Part shown: in pieces, positions 56,556-64,000 of the stretch
Position numbering within the stretch: the first letter of the stretch is position 1
How the letters are laid out: each line of letters begins with the position of its first letter
Origin: Serratia nematodiphila DZ0503SBS1
GTDB lineage: Bacteria; Pseudomonadota; Gammaproteobacteria; Enterobacterales; Enterobacteriaceae
DNA: 64,000 bases
Reading direction: 5' to 3'
Assembly: GCF_000738675.1 (NCBI RefSeq)
Contig: NZ_JPUX01000001.1
Coordinates: 4,387,631 to 4,451,630, forward strand
The notes under the pieces: generated by a model
Told to the model about the DNA's origin: nothing
The model's database searches: none
Seen by the model: only the letters and a program-made list of their open reading frames with translations
Made by a program: the position numbers and the translations under genes

Positions 56556-57857
56556 ATGACGTTCATGAAACTGCCCCCCTTCTCTCTCAAATTTATACTC
56601 GGCACACTTCTTGCTACCCTGCCTCTGAAAATCGGTTATGCCTTCGAGATTGGCATTAACACACACCTACGCTGGTATCCAGAAGAGCAAGATCATTATT
56701 TGAACTTGATAAGTAACTATGGTTTTAATTCCTTTCGTGATGATTACCTTTGGGGGTTAGTTGAACAACAGAAAGGCACCTATCAACCTGTAGATAAACT
56801 TATACGTGTAGATAAGTCTCTCTTAGTTGCAAATAAAAACTATGGTATGAACCCCATTGCCGTTCTAGCCTATGGCAATGATCTCTATGATAAAAGTGGA
56901 TATGCCAGCAACGATGAATCTATCGCAGCTTATGCAAATTATGCATACTGGACAGCAAAAAGATTTAAAGGAAAGGTCAAGTATTATGAGATCTGGAATG
57001 AGTGGAGTGTTGGCACCGGCACGCATAATAAATCACCAGCCCCTCCTCCAGCTCAGGTCTACTACAAACTCATCAAGCAGGCCTCTATAGCGATAAAGAG
57101 GGCAGACCCCGGAGCTATCGTGCTTGCAGGCTCCTTCGATCCTTTAGGAAACGATGGATTAAAATGGTCCGATGACTTGATAAAGCTGGGCATGCTCAAT
57201 TATATAGATGGGATATCAATACATCCGTATAGCTTTAAATCCAGTGATAAATCGCTGACTACCCCGGAAGGAAACATTGAAAAAATCGATGGGTATCAAG
57301 AAGAATTGAAGAGGCTCGTAGGCAAAGAGGTCCCTATTTACATCACTGAAATTGGCGTACCAACCAATGCGGGGAAATTTGGGTACAGCGAGGACTATGT
57401 AGCCCAATATGTTGTCAAATATACTCTTCTTGCAAAAGCCAGGGGATATATAAAAGGAGTTTGGTGGTATGACTTAAGCGATGATGGTGATAACAACCAA
57501 AATATAGAGCATAGATTTGGATTGCTCAGGAAAAATGGGAGTAAAAAGCCAAGCATGGAGTCATACGAGAAAATTGCCGATTTAATAAAAAATTACTCGG
57601 TAAAAAATTACAATGTGACAACCGATGGTAAAGTGAATTTAATCTTTAGCAATGGAAAAAAAGAAGCCAGGGTTAGTTGGAAAAAGAATGATACGCAGGA
57701 GGGAAGGAATTCCACAACGGGAAGAATAATGTCGCTCATGACGAGTAGTAAACCATCTTCGCAGAAAATTACGGCTCTCGTTATTGAAGACCCAACGCAA
57801 AAAAGTCAACCAGCGGTTAGCGCAGACACGCCAGTGATAACATTCGGCAGCGAGTAA
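56556..57857 (+). CDS. Secreted clan-A glycoside hydrolase, PslG-like
   Basis: 433 residues with a signal peptide ending near KIGYA. The TIM-barrel has the two clan GH-A glutamates: acid/base E149 in YYEIWNEWSVG and nucleophile E265 in IYITEIGVPT, with FRDDYLWGLVEQQKG near the N-terminus. The arrangement and length recall PslG of Pseudomonas (family GH39), a hydrolase that trims the Psl exopolysaccharide during its synthesis. The C-terminal 60 residues are polar and low-complexity. It faces the polysaccharide cluster to the right and shares a terminator with it, so its substrate is probably that glycan. Other GH5/GH39-like families cannot be excluded. Confidence 0.78.
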   Translation: MTFMKLPPFSLKFILGTLLATLPLKIGYAFEIGINTHLRWYPEEQDHYLNLISNYGFNSFRDDYLWGLVEQQKGTYQPVDKLIRVDKSLLVANKNYGMNPIAVLAYGNDLYDKSGYASNDESIAAYANYAYWTAKRFKGKVKYYEIWNEWSVGTGTHNKSPAPPPAQVYYKLIKQASIAIKRADPGAIVLAGSFDPLGNDGLKWSDDLIKLGMLNYIDGISIHPYSFKSSDKSLTTPEGNIEKIDGYQEELKRLVGKEVPIYITEIGVPTNAGKFGYSEDYVAQYVVKYTLLAKARGYIKGVWWYDLSDDGDNNQNIEHRFGLLRKNGSKKPSMESYEKIADLIKNYSVKNYNVTTDGKVNLIFSNGKKEARVSWKKNDTQEGRNSTTGRIMSLMTSSKPSSQKITALVIEDPTQKSQPAVSADTPVITFGSE

Positions 57858-57977: not shown

Positions 57978-58580
57978 TTATACTATCGTATAACGCCCTG
58001 CATTGAGCATGTCGGAAAATAATCTCTCGGACTTTATTGATGGAGAAACAATATAGGTAAACTTAGCAGCCATAGCTAACGGGATATCATCATAATGATC
58101 AGTAAAGAAAAGATCTGGTTCCTCAGAAAATTGCTCCCGAACGAATTTAAGCTTCACTACATTTAATGTTTCGACAAATTCACCTGAGTGGCAAAAATGT
58201 GCACATATAGTGACATCAAAATCATTAACTTCCTGAGAGAAAGAGGACACATAAATATCCGGCGCTGCAGTTGCCAAGCACTTAGTCGAATTATCACCTA
58301 GAACGAGCAAATCCTTTCGGAGAGAATGGCGGGCCAACCATTTTCCGTACTTCTTACCGACATAGGGCCAAAACTTGGTGCGTTGCTGAATCGCTAATAA
58401 AGCCACCTTAAATCCAACGCGATCCATTCTCCCAATTTTCCTGCATATGGCGAATTTAATAATAGAGAATAAAAAATACCATCTAAGGAAAAAAATAGAG
58501 ATGAAAAAAGACAGAACAACCCATACTTTAAAAGTGTTAAATGGCACAAGTGTACCATCAAGATCATATACGGATTTCAA
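57978..58580 (-). CDS. Membrane-associated HAD-IB phosphatase in glycan cluster
   Basis: A 200-residue HAD hydrolase. Motif I is DLDGT at residues 6-10 (VYDLDGTLVPF), motif II the serine of YVSSFSQEV, motif III a lysine in KLKFVREQ, and motif IV FTDHYDDIPLAMAA. Unlike soluble relatives it has a hydrophobic insert around residues 18-42 (WVVLSFFISIFFLRWYFLFS), which suggests inner-membrane attachment. Its ATG overlaps the phosphoribosyltransferase stop (ATGA). I infer that it removes the 5-phosphate left after phosphoribosyl transfer to a lipid or glycan, by analogy with the PRT plus HAD pairs known for ribofuranose and for decaprenyl-phosphoryl ribose. No direct evidence of substrate is visible. 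Confidence 0.8.
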   Translation of the reverse strand: MKSVYDLDGTLVPFNTFKVWVVLSFFISIFFLRWYFLFSIIKFAICRKIGRMDRVGFKVALLAIQQRTKFWPYVGKKYGKWLARHSLRKDLLVLGDNSTKCLATAAPDIYVSSFSQEVNDFDVTICAHFCHSGEFVETLNVVKLKFVREQFSEEPDLFFTDHYDDIPLAMAAKFTYIVSPSIKSERLFSDMLNAGRYTIV

Positions 58581-59161
58581 CCTTTTCTCCTAACATCACT
58601 AGCCCAGGGATAACGAATAAGATAGCCCTTATAAAGATAAAAATCTGGAATAAAAGCAGGCTCGTCAAATGTGACATTTAACGCAGCAGTTTTAACGACC
58701 GAATCCGATGAAAGATACGGTTGGAGAAAATTGATGCAATCAATAAACGTACCACCACTATCAACGGCATCATCAACAATTAGAATTCTCTTACCTTTTC
58801 GCAGGTGTTCCAAGTCGCCGGAGATATGCGCCACAGCTCCTACTGACAATATTCTTCCGGATTTTCTGAACTTACGTTCGTTGAATTTTATTTCCGCTAT
58901 TCTCAATAAGTCATTTATCGGCCTTGGGAGGAAAGGCAAAAAAGAAGCCATTCTGAACTTGGACTTCTTCTTAGTAGAATTTCGCTGCCTTTTTATTATA
59001 ACAAGCGGAACATTAATTTTTTTCCCAATTTCCTCAGCGACATAGCGTCCACCAGTGGCAACACCAATAATAACATCAGGGGAAAATTCTTTAATTATTT
59101 CTTTAGACAACCGATCACATAACGAATCGAAATCTTTGCCGATAGCCGTAATAACTTTCAT
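58577..59161 (-). CDS. Type I phosphoribosyltransferase in glycan cluster
   Basis: 194 residues with the 13-residue PRPP-binding motif at 126-138 (ILIVDDAVDSGGT) and the pyrophosphate loop GVATGGRYVAEEIG at about 33-46. This is the classical type I PRTase fold, as in purine salvage enzymes, but the rest does not look like Gpt, Hpt, Apt, Upp or PyrE. A basic loop (KRQRNSTKKKSKFRM) in the middle is unusual. It lies one base after a GT4 gene and overlaps the HAD gene, all within a polysaccharide cluster. I infer transfer of phosphoribose from PRPP to a glycan or lipid carrier, or a capsule-linked nucleotide role. The acceptor is unknown. Confidence 0.8.
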   Translation of the reverse strand: MKVITAIGKDFDSLCDRLSKEIIKEFSPDVIIGVATGGRYVAEEIGKKINVPLVIIKRQRNSTKKKSKFRMASFLPFLPRPINDLLRIAEIKFNERKFRKSGRILSVGAVAHISGDLEHLRKGKRILIVDDAVDSGGTFIDCINFLQPYLSSDSVVKTAALNVTFDEPAFIPDFYLYKGYLIRYPWASDVRRKG

Positions 59162-59162
59162 A

Positions 59163-60293
59163 TCAAAACTTTCCTATGATATTTTCATAAACAGAGTAAG
59201 TCTCCGTTGCGCATCGCTGCCAACTGAAAGTATCAGCTCTTCTTAAACCTTTTTCTGACAAAGAGGCACGTAACTGAGCATCATTAAAAACATTCTCCAT
59301 AGCACTAACTAACTGAGAAAGGTCATTTGGATTAACCAATAATGCTGCATCACCAGCTATTTCCGGGCAGGAACCTGCGGTAGAGGTGATGACAGGAGCC
59401 CCGCAAGACATCGCTTCTAGAATAGGCAAACCAAATCCCTCGGCAAAACTTGGAAATACCAGGCAAAGCGTGTTGTTATACAAATGAACAAGGTCCTCAT
59501 TCGAGACACCTCGAAGGACTTTTATTTTATCCGGGTTATTAAATATTTTATTTTCCAAGGCAGGATTAGGAAATGCCGGATCGAACCCTCCAACCAAAAC
59601 TAACTGCACATCAGCATCGGCAAGTCTCTCGAATGCAGCAATAACACTATCAATATTCTTAATCGCGGCAAACCGCCCGACAAAAAGAAAATATGGCTTA
59701 GTCACACCCAGACTAGCGATTACATCATTAGATTTTACTTTATCTTTCACGTGGAACTGCTTGCTCGCAGCTTCGTGCACAACCGTAATTTTATTTTCAT
59801 TAACACCGAAGTTCTTGATTATCTCATCTTTCGTATAATGAGAAACTGCAATTATATGATCTGCTTTTTTTAAACTAGGCGGCGTGAAAATTTCCAATCC
59901 TTTAGTCAACTTAGGATTGAAGTACTGTTTGTGCGTACGGAACATGACATCATGAACAGTCACAACATGTTTCGTACTTCTGGTTGTAACCAAGGGTGAT
60001 AAATAATTTGTATGCAAGAGATCGCATTTATTGCGCCATTCAGCAAGTGCAAATCCGCCGAGAAGGTTCATAGGCGTCCAACCTGATATCAACTTCTTTA
60101 TTTCTACACGATTATCATTTAAGAAAGGTTGCCCAGCCTGCTTAGTTAAAACAATGGCAGGATCGTCCGCCAGAAGCAATAACTTATCATCGCGATTTAT
60201 GCACGAAACCAAGTTATTCGCCAATTCTATTGTGTACGTTCCAGTCCCTTGACTAACCTTTTGCATAAATCGGCTATCGAGTGCGATTCTCAT
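59163..60293 (-). CDS. GT4 family glycosyltransferase
   Basis: A 376-residue GT-B enzyme. N-terminal half: [27 protein letters not shown] and [12 protein letters not shown]; donor half: [22 protein letters not shown] and the EX7E in [15 protein letters not shown]. It adds a sugar from a nucleotide donor on the cytoplasmic face of the inner membrane; the sugar cannot be predicted. Coupling to the phosphoribosyltransferase gene (one base apart) suggests that it may make the acceptor for that enzyme. Confidence 0.86.
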
Positions 60294-60325: not shown

Positions 60326-61759
60326 TTAGTATGCGCCATCACGCTTTAATACAACACCTATAGTTTTAAATAGAATCGCAATGTCATTCCAAAGCGCCCA
60401 ATTCTTAACGTACCATGCATCAAAATACACGCGCGTGTCATAATCAATATCATTACGGCCACTGACCTGCCACAATCCTGTCATTCCTGGCTTCGCCATG
60501 AAGTAGTAATCGACATCACCTGCATAACGTTCCAATTCTTTTTCAATAACCGGTCTTGGGCCAACTAGACTCATTTCACCACGAAGTACATTCCACAATT
60601 GAGGTAACTCATCCAGGCTTGTCTTTCTAATAAAAGCGCCAATCTTTGTAATACGTGGGTCGTTTTTCAATTTAAAGTCTTTATTCCATTCTTCTCTGGC
60701 CTCAGGATCTCGCTCCAATAAATCTGCAAGTACTTCCTGAGAATTTAGAACCATCGATCTGAACTTTAAGCATTTAAATTTCTTTCCATTGTGCCCCACT
60801 CTCTCATGCCCATAAATAGGACGACCACCATCTCTTGAAACTTTGTAAGTCAAGAAAATCAACACGGGAGAAAGTGCAACCAAAATAAGAGATGAGCCAA
60901 TAATATCAAATGTGCGCTTAATGAAGCGTGATGAACGCTTGGCTAAATTATTGCTTACCCGCAGAATCATTACTTCATGACTAAAAATAAATGACATATC
61001 GGTGCCATAAAGAGGAACACCACGAAGAGTTGGGATAACAGAAACCGACCGACAATTATGCTTAGCCAGATCTTTCAACCACCAATCACGTAGCGCATGT
61101 TGTTCAAATTCAAGTGCGACGATAAATTGCGTACTCTCAACATTGACACAACGCCACAGCTCTTCTTCCGAATTAATGACCGGGATGCCAAAATAATTAT
61201 CTTCGCATGGTTTATCCGTACACACAAAGGCAACAACTTCAAATCCAAGAACTTCTTCACTTTGCAATGCTGCATAGGCTTCAAAGGCATTTCTTCCCGA
61301 GCCAATGATTATGGTTTGTTTTTTCCACAACCCCATCTTGTTAAGGATTTTTTTTGTTAATGCTCTCCCCAACGGCACTAAAATAATTATCAACATCCAT
61401 GATAACACCCAAACTGAACGAGAAAAGTTCCACTTAGAAAATGCAACTAGAGCTAAATCAAGAACAGCAAAAATAACTAGCGTTCTGAGAACTTCCTTGA
61501 GCTCAAACCAAAATGGCTTTCTATATGTGTAGTGTCTAAGCCTTGTCCAGAACCAAAGAACACACACTACAGATATAACAAACTGCGCAACAGAACGAAT
61601 AAAAAACTCATCCTGAGGTATATAATTATTTAACCCATCAAATAATTTGTAAAGAATGAAATACGAAAGATAGACCGATATGTTAAAAAAGAAAATATCT
61701 GACAATGCTAGCATTAGTTTTGTCGTAAAATCGCCAAAAAAAACATTTGTTTTTTTCAT
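60326..61759 (-). CDS. Undecaprenyl-phosphate hexose-1-phosphate transferase, WbaP-like
   Basis: 477 residues, the WbaP length. There are four or five N-terminal membrane helices, a central nucleotide-fold soluble region (KQTIIIGSGRNAFEAYAAL), a membrane segment (FDIIGSSLILVALSPVLIFL), then the catalytic domain. The catalytic part shows KFRSMVLNS, KTSLDELPQLWNVL, the DE pair, GEMSLVGPRPV and KPGMTGLWQVSGR. It starts glycan assembly by moving galactose 1-phosphate (or glucose 1-phosphate) to undecaprenyl phosphate. Its presence shows a second, Wzy- or ABC-type glycan separate from the polymannan, which would start with WecA. galE nearby fits galactose. Confidence 0.9.
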   Translation of the reverse strand: MKKTNVFFGDFTTKLMLALSDIFFFNISVYLSYFILYKLFDGLNNYIPQDEFFIRSVAQFVISVVCVLWFWTRLRHYTYRKPFWFELKEVLRTLVIFAVLDLALVAFSKWNFSRSVWVLSWMLIIILVPLGRALTKKILNKMGLWKKQTIIIGSGRNAFEAYAALQSEEVLGFEVVAFVCTDKPCEDNYFGIPVINSEEELWRCVNVESTQFIVALEFEQHALRDWWLKDLAKHNCRSVSVIPTLRGVPLYGTDMSFIFSHEVMILRVSNNLAKRSSRFIKRTFDIIGSSLILVALSPVLIFLTYKVSRDGGRPIYGHERVGHNGKKFKCLKFRSMVLNSQEVLADLLERDPEAREEWNKDFKLKNDPRITKIGAFIRKTSLDELPQLWNVLRGEMSLVGPRPVIEKELERYAGDVDYYFMAKPGMTGLWQVSGRNDIDYDTRVYFDAWYVKNWALWNDIAILFKTIGVVLKRDGAY

Positions 61760-61864: not shown

Positions 61865-62950
61865 TTATTTTATAACTTCACGATAAAGTGAACTTACTTT
61901 CTGTGTCATAAAACAGCTTTTGAAGTTTTTACTGTAATTATCATAACTTCTTTCGCTCATCGTTTTCCAAAAATCCAAATTTTTATCGCAAATAACGGTA
62001 GAAAAACCTTTTATATCCCCATAATCAACTAAAAAACCTGTGACACCATTTATAATAATTTCTGGCAGTGAACCTCGTTCAAAAGCCAGAACGGGTAAAC
62101 CGTAACTTTGCGCCTCTACGGCAACAAGGCCGAAGGCCTCCCAACGACTTGGCATCAGTAAGACTGTTGCATGGAAAAAATAAGGTGCAATATCTTCATA
62201 CTTCAACCAGCCTATGTACGTTATTTTTTCACCATATACAGGAAGACTCTTATACTCTATAACATAGTCTCCGATCACAGTGATATGTATATCCTCATTC
62301 TGAGAAAGCAAATTGGTTATATTTAGAACGTGATCAAAACCTTTCTGGTGATCCGTCCGTCCAACAAAGAGAATATTCTTTTTATTCGCGTATTTATAAG
62401 GGCTTTTTTGCGTTACTATCAAAGGATCTTGAACACCATTATAGATAATGACTAAACGCTCTGGATTAAGCCCCCATTTTATGGCTTCCCTATATTCATA
62501 TTCACTGACACAAATAGTTTTATCCGTCACTTTCTCTAGCATGCGCTCAATAAATGCGTAGACTCGCTTTTTATAAACAGGAATATCCATTAAGAAAGCA
62601 AAGGCATGCGGACAGTAAATCACTTTGGGGTGATAAAAAACAAATATTATAGGCAAAGCCAAACGGCATAAAAAGCCAGCAAAACTACTGTGTAAATGAA
62701 TTACATCCGGTTTTTTATTTAAAACAACTCGCAGAAAACAAAACAGAAGCAAAAATAATGACATGGTATTTCTTCCAGTTCTATTGAATGGAGAAAGCAC
62801 ATGTTCTCTAACACCAACCAGTTCAGATAACTGTTGTCTCGGAACAATGCATAATACCTCATCTTCAGTATCTTGCTGTTCCATAACCAGTTGTCGCATG
62901 ATTGTCGCAACACCACCCTTTATTGTTTCGGCGACATGCAATATTTTCAC
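61865..62950 (-). CDS. GT4 family glycosyltransferase
   Basis: 361 residues from a GTG start at 62950 that overlaps the upstream gene's TAG by one base (TAGTG). N-terminus KILHVAETIKGGVATIMRQLV, with the VIHLHSSFAGFLCRL loop; donor domain ILFVGRTDHQKGFDHVLNI; and EX7E-type WEAFGLVAVEAQSYG. A cytoplasmic membrane-associated transferase of unknown sugar. It is very AT-rich. No gene lies in the 105 bases before the WbaP-like gene. Confidence 0.86.
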   Translation of the reverse strand: MKILHVAETIKGGVATIMRQLVMEQQDTEDEVLCIVPRQQLSELVGVREHVLSPFNRTGRNTMSLFLLLFCFLRVVLNKKPDVIHLHSSFAGFLCRLALPIIFVFYHPKVIYCPHAFAFLMDIPVYKKRVYAFIERMLEKVTDKTICVSEYEYREAIKWGLNPERLVIIYNGVQDPLIVTQKSPYKYANKKNILFVGRTDHQKGFDHVLNITNLLSQNEDIHITVIGDYVIEYKSLPVYGEKITYIGWLKYEDIAPYFFHATVLLMPSRWEAFGLVAVEAQSYGLPVLAFERGSLPEIIINGVTGFLVDYGDIKGFSTVICDKNLDFWKTMSERSYDNYSKNFKSCFMTQKVSSLYREVIK

Positions 62951-64000
62951 TAATCACTCCAGGGCTTATCTTTTGCGTAGCCTTCAAGTATATTATTTAT
63001 TTTATTAGCCGACGCCAACCAATTAAATCGCTTAGCGTTTTCAAAACCTCGTTTAATCAGTGAATCCCTTAAACCACCATCATGGTATAGTTTCTCTATC
63101 TGTGAAATTAAACTTTCAGAACAAGTTGGTGAAAAATAAAGCGCACTGTCGTTCAACACTTCCGGCATTGATGCTGTATTAGATGCAATAACAGGACAAC
63201 CGCAAGATTGAGCCTCAAGCAATGGAATTCCGAAACCTTCATAGAGGGATGGGAAAACGAAAGCAAAGGCTCCTGAATAAAGCACTGCCAGTTCCTCATC
63301 AGTAACTCGGCCATAGTACTTTATATATGAATTATTACTCACTGCAGAATAGGTAACTGTTGAAAAATTTCTATTCGATGCACCGACAATTTTTAACTCC
63401 AAACCTAAACTATTATTTATTTTTTCAAAACTATCAATTATCAGTTTAAAATTCTTATGAACGCTTGGAGAAGATACACATAGAATATATGGATTGTCTG
63501 GCTCAGTAATTTTGCGTGGAAAGAAAACCTCAGTAGCTGCATTATTGACAACATCAATATTCTCAATTCCGTAGGCCCGCTCTATTTCATTTCGAGAAAA
63601 TCACTGACAGTAATGATTTTTTTCCCTCTTTTTAAAAGCCACGGTGAAAAAATTCTATAAAAAATCTAAAACCTAGTGAGTAACTTTTGGGATAAACTCG
63701 ATAAGTTATATCATGATGAACAATGATATTGTTAAAGAACCCTATTGGAGCGGTATTACAAAAACTTAAAAGCACATTTCCATTTCGCACCATAAAGAGA
63801 AATAACTCTGTTTGCTCCCATAACTGTCCGGATAGGCGCCCGATTCTCTTTATATTAAACGCCTTAGTAATCTCATTATCTGCGTAGTTTTAGGGCAAAG
63901 CACAACAATATCATCTCGGATCTTAATCAAATTAAGTAAGATTTGAATAGCAAAGCGTTGAACGCCTGTCACCTCTTGCGTTAAAAAACGGCCATTAACA
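62950..64000 (-). pseudogene. GT4 glycosyltransferase with three frameshifts, 5' end cut
   Basis: By translating all frames I can follow one GT4 protein over the whole stretch. From the right edge it runs NGRFLTQEVTGVQRFA, DIVVLCPKNYADNEITK, RIGRLSGQLWEQTELF, VLLSFCNTAPIGFFNN, VHHDITYRVYPKSYS, SPWLLKRGKKIITVSDF, SRNEIERAYGIENIDVV, CVSSPSVHKNFKLIID and the EX7E segment YEGFGIPLLEAQSCG. The frame breaks three times, each repaired by one added base in a homopolymer: T-run 63888-63891, A-run 63659-63664 and A-run 63597-63600. No substitution-type stop was seen. Only a few N-terminal codons are missing at the edge. It is either a recently broken gene or affected by sequence errors. Confidence 0.85.

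Follow-up and report, generated by a model that had tools for sequence, protein, structure and literature searches.

The question raised by the end of a 64,000-nucleotide stretch of the Serratia nematodiphila DZ0503SBS1 genome (contig NZ_JPUX01000001.1, positions 4,387,631 to 4,451,630; hereafter the window) is why a type I phosphoribosyltransferase (PRTase), of a class that serves nucleotide metabolism, should be encoded among the genes of a surface glycan. Three minus-strand genes are concerned. A GT4 glycosyltransferase (GT) of 376 amino acids comes first (59163..60293; PF00534 (Glycos_transf_1), E 2.7e-31; PF13439, E 4.2e-16), followed by the PRTase of 194 amino acids (58577..59161; PF00156 (Pribosyltran), E 5.1e-17, 62.1 bits against a cut-off of 26.3) and by a HAD phosphatase of 200 amino acids (57978..58580; PF12710, E 1.7e-7, 32.3 bits against a cut-off of 27), whose TTG start overlaps the PRTase stop. 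The gap between the GT4 and PRTase genes is 1 base and the overlap between PRTase and HAD is 4 bases; together with the Pfam matches, these distances bore out the three coupled genes, with their coordinates and strands, that an earlier sequence-only reading had described. We consider it probable that the PRTase and the HAD form a two-step unit that adds ribofuranose to the repeat of a capsule, on a classical PRTase scaffold. The observed basis is the gene order, the pairing of the two genes, one fusion, an intact loop for phosphoribosyl pyrophosphate (PRPP), the HAD catalytic residues, the predicted folds and the replacement of purine-contact positions; from these we infer the substrate, the linkage, the order of the steps and the presence of ribose in the glycan.

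The PRTase is a type I enzyme by its PF00156 match above cut-off, its canonical 13-residue loop and its type I fold. The full PRPP-binding loop, placed by the sequence-only reading at residues 126-138, was read off the translation as I126-T138 (ILIVDDAVDSGGT; 58748..58786, minus strand). We aligned 133 rows, comprising 63 database proteins and 70 from the window and the loci described below, with redundancy kept. D130, D131, D134, G136 and R87 were invariant (133/133), and P79 (132/133), R183 (130/133), R60 (129/133) and E90 (127/133) were nearly so. R60, P79, R87 and E90 fall in a long segment, approximately residues 60-105 (58847..58984, minus strand), modelled with helices at 71-77 and 80-100, which is a candidate acceptor or lid region. 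Structure prediction gave a small, soluble alpha/beta model of the type I fold. Pfam matched the protein to just three PRTase families at E up to 1, with no UbiA membrane domain. When the PRTase profile was run against the PDB, 45 sequences matched with E no higher than 0.001; these were mostly nucleotide-type PRTases or PyrR, and none carried the name of a ribofuranosyltransferase.

Two further positions bear on the substrate. Thr occupies position 164 in 131 of the 133 rows, and position 181 carries Leu or Ile in as many (131 of 133); neither Lys nor an aromatic residue occurs at these positions among the rows counted. In S. solfataricus GpT-2 (4z1o) the residues aligned with these positions are Lys and Trp, and the Gpt of the host carries FAKPAGRP and DTWIEQPWD at the motifs matched by eye to positions 164 and 181. 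In purine PRTases the Lys contacts the purine oxygen and the Trp stacks on the base, roles for which our literature search gave no support. Because T164 and L/I181 replace the aligned Lys and Trp, the window PRTase looks unfit for purines.

The partner enzyme was recognized as a HAD phosphatase, class IB-like, by its DxDxT, Lys and Asp motifs. Its active-site residues D6, D8, T10, K143, D161 and D165 were present in 96/96 aligned rows. The nearest folds of its model were 3fvv and phosphoserine phosphatases, and its sole NCBIfam match, below cut-off, was an HAD-IB family. Comparison of the HAD with the PDB by sequence and by profile gave no usable match (best profile E 0.025). In the fold searches with the PRTase and the HAD, no row was described as the T. 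composti or Bcs3 enzyme, a result compatible with a relation to them. Because both the PRPP-loop residues and the HAD catalytic residues are invariant, the two proteins look catalytically competent, as predicted from sequence. The sequence-only reading had also given the HAD a membrane segment, and here its assignment to the HAD family stood and the segment came out weaker: the model places its hydrophobic stretch, approximately residues 19-37 (mean hydropathy 1.99), in the cap helices of a HAD fold that is soluble. Family-wide the median hydropathy was 1.35 and just 25 of 90 members reached 1.6, the value that we took as membrane-like, which does not establish a conserved transmembrane segment.

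One line of evidence for a joint function is that the two genes keep company in many genomes. A PRTase profile built from 26 sequences found 67 loci in the genome collection; sorted by hand, 44 were from Bacteroidota, 13 from Alphaproteobacteria and 10 from others, two of these 10 with doubtful bin labels. With a HAD profile built from 27 sequences, the HAD was present in 64 of the 67 loci. It lay directly downstream in 59 (and probably also in L082, where its start was mis-called) and upstream in two (L040, L047); in L053 a GT2 gene stood between the two, and in one contig (L069) PRTase and HAD were fused in a protein of 483 amino acids with both Pfam domains. In L060, which lacks the HAD in the locus, the sequence stops 97 bases past the PRTase and a matching HAD lies at a contig edge in the same genome.

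The reverse test, which started from the HAD profile in whole genomes, gave the same picture: a PRTase adjoined the HAD in 41 of 43 loci, a count that leaves out 16 of the 46 HAD matches from the family of Duncaniella muris. One of the two exceptions (L158) was the contig-edge HAD of the L060 genome; the other (L134) showed different neighbours, and its HAD looks to be of another kind. The reverse test overlaps the forward one, in that L120 is the window and L135, L147, L158, L163 and L169 share genomes or contigs with L068, L069, L060, L098 and L065, as perhaps do others. As a control, the same HAD was found in 0 of 38 loci around other PRTase-profile matches, at least 28 of them weak class-wide matches and the rest PF00156 matches of the host (a 39th locus, the window gene itself, was excluded). 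The class-wide search with the PRTase profile matched 165 of 369 genomes at E 0.001; the window gene scored 253 bits, and because the best match besides it reached just 63.5 bits, the class-wide matches serve as controls only. We concluded that the PRTase-HAD pair is a real conserved unit.

We then considered the company of the pair, for which GTs were counted with two profiles built from GT clusters of these same neighbourhoods, mostly near the pair, a choice that favours near GTs. At least 30 of the 67 loci had a GT adjacent to the pair, and 36 had one no more than 4 kb away. Among flanking genes, 30 of 128 were GTs, versus 6 of the 356 that stood at least four positions off (Fisher p 1.4e-13, a value that is too small because many of the loci are related). 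The neighbourhood survey suggested by the sequence-only reading thus supported co-occurrence of the PRTase with both the HAD and, less widely, GTs. In Bacteroidota, a GT2 gene came immediately before the PRTase in 21 of 44 loci, often overlapping it. Short flanks of the HAD-centred loci held a GT in 26 of 43 cases.

The setting in the window itself, which the sequence-only reading had called a surface-glycan cluster, proved to be just that and could be sharpened to the end of a capsule locus. Next to the three genes lies a WbaP-like undecaprenyl-phosphate galactose phosphotransferase of 477 amino acids (60326..61759, minus strand; TIGR03022, 564.6 bits against a cut-off of 403; PF02397, E 2.5e-64), which would initiate the repeat unit. 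The same locus holds a GT4 of 361 amino acids (61865..62950, minus strand; PF00534, E 2.2e-26) and an additional GT4 that reaches the contig end (62950..64000, minus strand; PF00534, E 3.3e-22 on the 150-amino-acid open part 62950-63402). The latter aligns at 71% identity to a 353-amino-acid homologue in G018, a relative from the same genus; a short piece of the alignment falls in a second frame, and the open reading frame listed for the window gene spans just 150 amino acids. Either the gene is disturbed or the assembly is wrong where the contig stops. The window ends where the contig ends, and in the same assembly contig C2 carries homologues of wzc (98.6% identity) and wza (99.7%) close to its start. 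In G018 the locus is intact and reads Wza, Wzb (a low-molecular-weight phosphatase), Wzc, GT4, Wzy-like, GT4, GT4, WbaP, GT4, PRTase, HAD, the last six genes being identified via their window homologues and the Wzy-like match scoring 30.0 bits, slightly below the cut-off of 31.7. No Wzx flippase was recognized between wza and the HAD among the G018 genes scanned there and the window homologues. We read the three genes as closing a capsule-type Wza/Wzb/Wzc locus, taken as Wzy-dependent.

A second same-genus relative (G025) has a different capsule locus, in which Pfam recognized Wza, Wzy-like, GT2, PRTase, HAD, a Wzx-type protein and a pyruvyl transferase; by eye, Wzb, Wzc, a WbaP-like protein and dTDP-rhamnose genes are there as well. 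The pair is therefore found in two differently composed capsule loci of the genus, one with GT4 and one with GT2. After the capsule genes of the window, a GH5-like gene (56556-57857; PF00150, E 4.6e-11) is directed toward the HAD, and G018 retains it after its HAD, in opposite orientation. A scan of promoters and terminators gave 5 promoter-like sites where 7.5 were expected and 4 terminator-like sites where 2.4 were expected, including one stem-loop at the HAD stop; neither the counts nor the stem-loop were used as evidence.

Several observations weigh against a ribofuranose-adding role. In two loci (L050, L075) the PRTase occurs with no HAD of the same family genome-wide at E 0.001. The two GT profiles detect nothing within 4 kb of the pair in 31 of the 67 loci; Pfam adds a GT4 in two of these (L066, L096), but among 10 further neighbours of GT-free loci that were scanned, none was a GT. 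The genes neighbouring the pair in L065 and L078 encode metabolic enzymes, the gene downstream of the pair in Moritella (L039) encodes a DUF6942 protein, and three genomes of the same order showed no obvious glycan gene beside the pair by eye. The solved folds nearest to the PRTase model are purine PRTases, namely archaeal HGXPRT and XGPRT-type enzymes. The pair is also rare close to home, with HAD matches in 4 of 394 genomes of the order and 4 of 398 in the phylum sample (threshold 1e-15). In S. marcescens KL1, according to PMC9000132, the ribose that was detected did not come from the capsule genes, a finding that may bear on the window locus. The sequence-only reading had held that its proposal would fail if homologues lay consistently outside glycan loci in a salvage role. 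Almost half of the loci do lack a nearby GT, yet no salvage setting was recognized around them. Because GT enrichment goes together with GT-free loci, we regard the glycan setting as enriched but not universal. The idea of a classical PRTase and a HAD acting as a ribofuranosyl system beside a GT was thus strengthened by the pairing, the GT enrichment, the fusion, the residue replacement and the separate salvage enzymes of the host (see below), and weakened in its last part by the many loci without a GT.

In the mechanism that we propose, the acceptor would be a cytoplasmic oligosaccharide linked to undecaprenyl diphosphate, which WbaP would begin and the GT4 enzymes would elongate. To one of its sugar hydroxyls the PRTase would move ribose-5-phosphate from PRPP, with Mg2+ and inversion; because type I PRTases act with inversion, a beta linkage would be expected. 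The HAD, maybe held at the membrane via its hydrophobic cap, would then strip the 5'-phosphate. The coupled GT4 (59163..60293) would either make the acceptor or extend the chain by capping the new ribofuranose, and the finished repeat would pass to the Wzy/Wzc/Wza machinery.

Chemistry of this kind is already known. The gPRT and PRP enzymes transfer phosphoribosyl from PRPP and then remove the 5'-phosphate by a HAD step, as in Cj1432 of Campylobacter (PMC12096443), and the same two-step ribofuranosylation is described for Bcs3 (CriT/CrpP) of the Hib capsule (PMC10299916) and for Klebsiella O4/O7 (PMC11231755). These systems and the proposed role of the window pair are alike in the PRPP donor and the HAD step, and some of the known enzymes are joined to a GT or have one as neighbour; likewise, the HAD of the present family stands beside or fused to its transferase (64/67 and 41/43 loci, one fused contig). 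The sequence-only reading had stated that the known enzymes have a fold unlike normal PRTases. For CriT this holds for the acidic PRPP residues, D680 and E818, which sit on different loops, and does not hold for the core, which is reported to be PRTase-like alpha/beta and accompanied by helical bundles (PMC10299916). By contrast, the window PRTase is a type I enzyme of 194 amino acids with vicinal D130-D131 (133/133) in a canonical loop. Assignment of the window PRTase to gPRT/CriT was considered and, by the described CriT features, which it lacks, looks unlikely. Because CriT already has a PRTase-like core but a split acidic pair, the novelty here would lie in the intact canonical PRTase scaffold; the proposed chemistry is of a known kind and the scaffold would be new.

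The other described solution is that of the UbiA-type synthases, Mycobacterium DPPRS and Citrobacter youngae ORF15, which share the PRPP donor, a phosphatase step and a glycan pentofuranose with the proposed role of the window pair (PMC11127046). They are integral membrane proteins that act on polyprenyl phosphate, whereas the window PRTase has a soluble fold and GT2/GT4 neighbours. In PMC12077157 the word 'ribose' is absent. Open-access searches aimed at this question brought up no paper recognized as describing a type I PRTase in glycan ribosylation, although the founding 2022 gPRT paper, outside that coverage, may mention one. In the butirosin/ribostamycin pathway, BtrL and BtrP first phosphoribosylate an aminocyclitol sugar and then remove the phosphate; our open-access search found no paper on it, and this is a small-molecule antibiotic pathway, unlike the capsule setting.

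A related route would have the PRTase charge polyprenyl phosphate, as the UbiA-type enzymes do, so that the HAD would yield polyprenyl-phosphoryl-ribose and a GT-C enzyme would add the ribose outside the cytoplasm. We judge this unlikely. A three-component pathway of the kind is known (PMC11127046), and both the hydrophobic cap segment of the window HAD and its below-cut-off HAD-IB match would suit it. However, the PRTase model is small, soluble and alpha/beta, the recurrent partners are GT2 and GT4, and no flippase or GT-C was recognized among the six G018 locus genes or window genes scanned, a point qualified by the Wzx-type protein beside the pair in G025. Equally concerned with the product is the suggestion that the ribosyl phosphate is kept as a phosphoribosyl decoration or altered further, for example by epimerization to another pentofuranose, which would leave the glycan without plain ribofuranose. 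Pentofuranose epimerization is known in related pathways (PMC11127046), and L050 and L075 carry the PRTase in genomes without a HAD of the same family. We nevertheless find this very improbable: because the HAD residues are invariant (96/96 rows) and the pairing is nearly universal, dephosphorylation looks like the rule.

It is also conceivable that the pair salvages purines or other bases, or makes a nucleoside, and lies in the capsule locus by chance. Its nearest folds are those of the archaeal HGXPRT and XGPRT-type enzymes, and many loci lie away from GT genes. Yet the aligned Lys and Trp are replaced by Thr (or Ser) and by Leu/Ile in 131 of 133 rows each, and the window PRTase passed no NCBIfam salvage model among the 25 listed of 34 matched (best 31.1 bits against a cut-off of 150.25). 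Compared with the 6-oxopurine PRTases (archaeal GpT/HGXPRT 4z1o, 5bqp and 1vdm; E. coli-type XGPRT), the window family differs in Thr164, Leu/Ile181, Arg183, helices 71-100, and its HAD and often GT neighbours. The host also has its own salvage enzymes: its genome gave 10 PF00156 matches, and the eight proteins scanned, all encoded away from the window gene, were Hpt, Prs, Gpt, Apt, Upp, PyrE, PurF and GntX, above a cut-off (the tenth match, L115, was outside that scan). With Hpt, Gpt, Apt, Upp and PyrE thus encoded elsewhere, and with GTs enriched beside the pair, we think a salvage role has little chance of being correct, and we retain ribofuranose addition to the capsule repeat as the preferred explanation.

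Other features of the neighbourhoods were recorded in Bacteroidota and elsewhere. In the HAD-less loci L050 and L075, the PRTase directly precedes a gene that NCBIfam matches best, though below cut-off, to PorZ (147.3 and 142.7 bits against 260), and an LD-carboxypeptidase gene lies before the PRTase (by Pfam in L050, by clustering in L075). PorZ is a delivery protein for anionic lipopolysaccharide (A-LPS) in type IX secretion, and a link of these PRTases to A-LPS is possible. In L061 the pair comes after the type IX secretion genes for GldM and GldN, and four other candidates gave no matches or matches below cut-off; we regard a connection between the PRTase and type IX secretion genes in this phylum as a lead. 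A GHL10 glycosyl-hydrolase-like gene (PF02638, one member scanned) stands directly before GT2-PRTase-HAD in the Bacteroidota loci L042, L045, L048, L051 and L056, and the same gene holds this place in L063, L080, L084, L087 and L103. A cluster resembling phosphatidylserine decarboxylase by eye flanks the pair on the opposite strand in L066, L090, L091 and L100.

The distribution of the PRTase-HAD unit is patchy. Only 3 of 30 genomes in the genus of the window carry the PRTase; among the named close relatives Serratia predominates, accompanied by Brenneria and Gibbsiella. Two families were sampled at a threshold of 1e-10: that of Duncaniella muris had the HAD in 46 of 198 genomes, and that of Winogradskyella haliclonae in 6 of 149. 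We lean towards the view that a separate and widely scattered class of O-glycosyltransferases, dependent on PRPP and paired with a dedicated HAD, descends from the classical type I PRTases of nucleotide metabolism. In Proteobacteria, gut Bacteroidota and other phyla this class would place beta-ribofuranose in surface glycans. Those routes to a glycan pentofuranose from PRPP that we found described rely either on a divergent PRT-like domain or on a UbiA enzyme of the membrane, and the present one would be a third scaffold and a new glycosyltransferase family. If this is true, a canonical PRTase that makes O-glycosides links nucleotide salvage and glycan synthesis by descent. Genes now annotated plainly as 'phosphoribosyltransferase' would become predicted glycosyltransferases, and the pair would offer a new sequence marker that points to pentofuranose where glycan structures are undescribed, as in the Duncaniella muris family.

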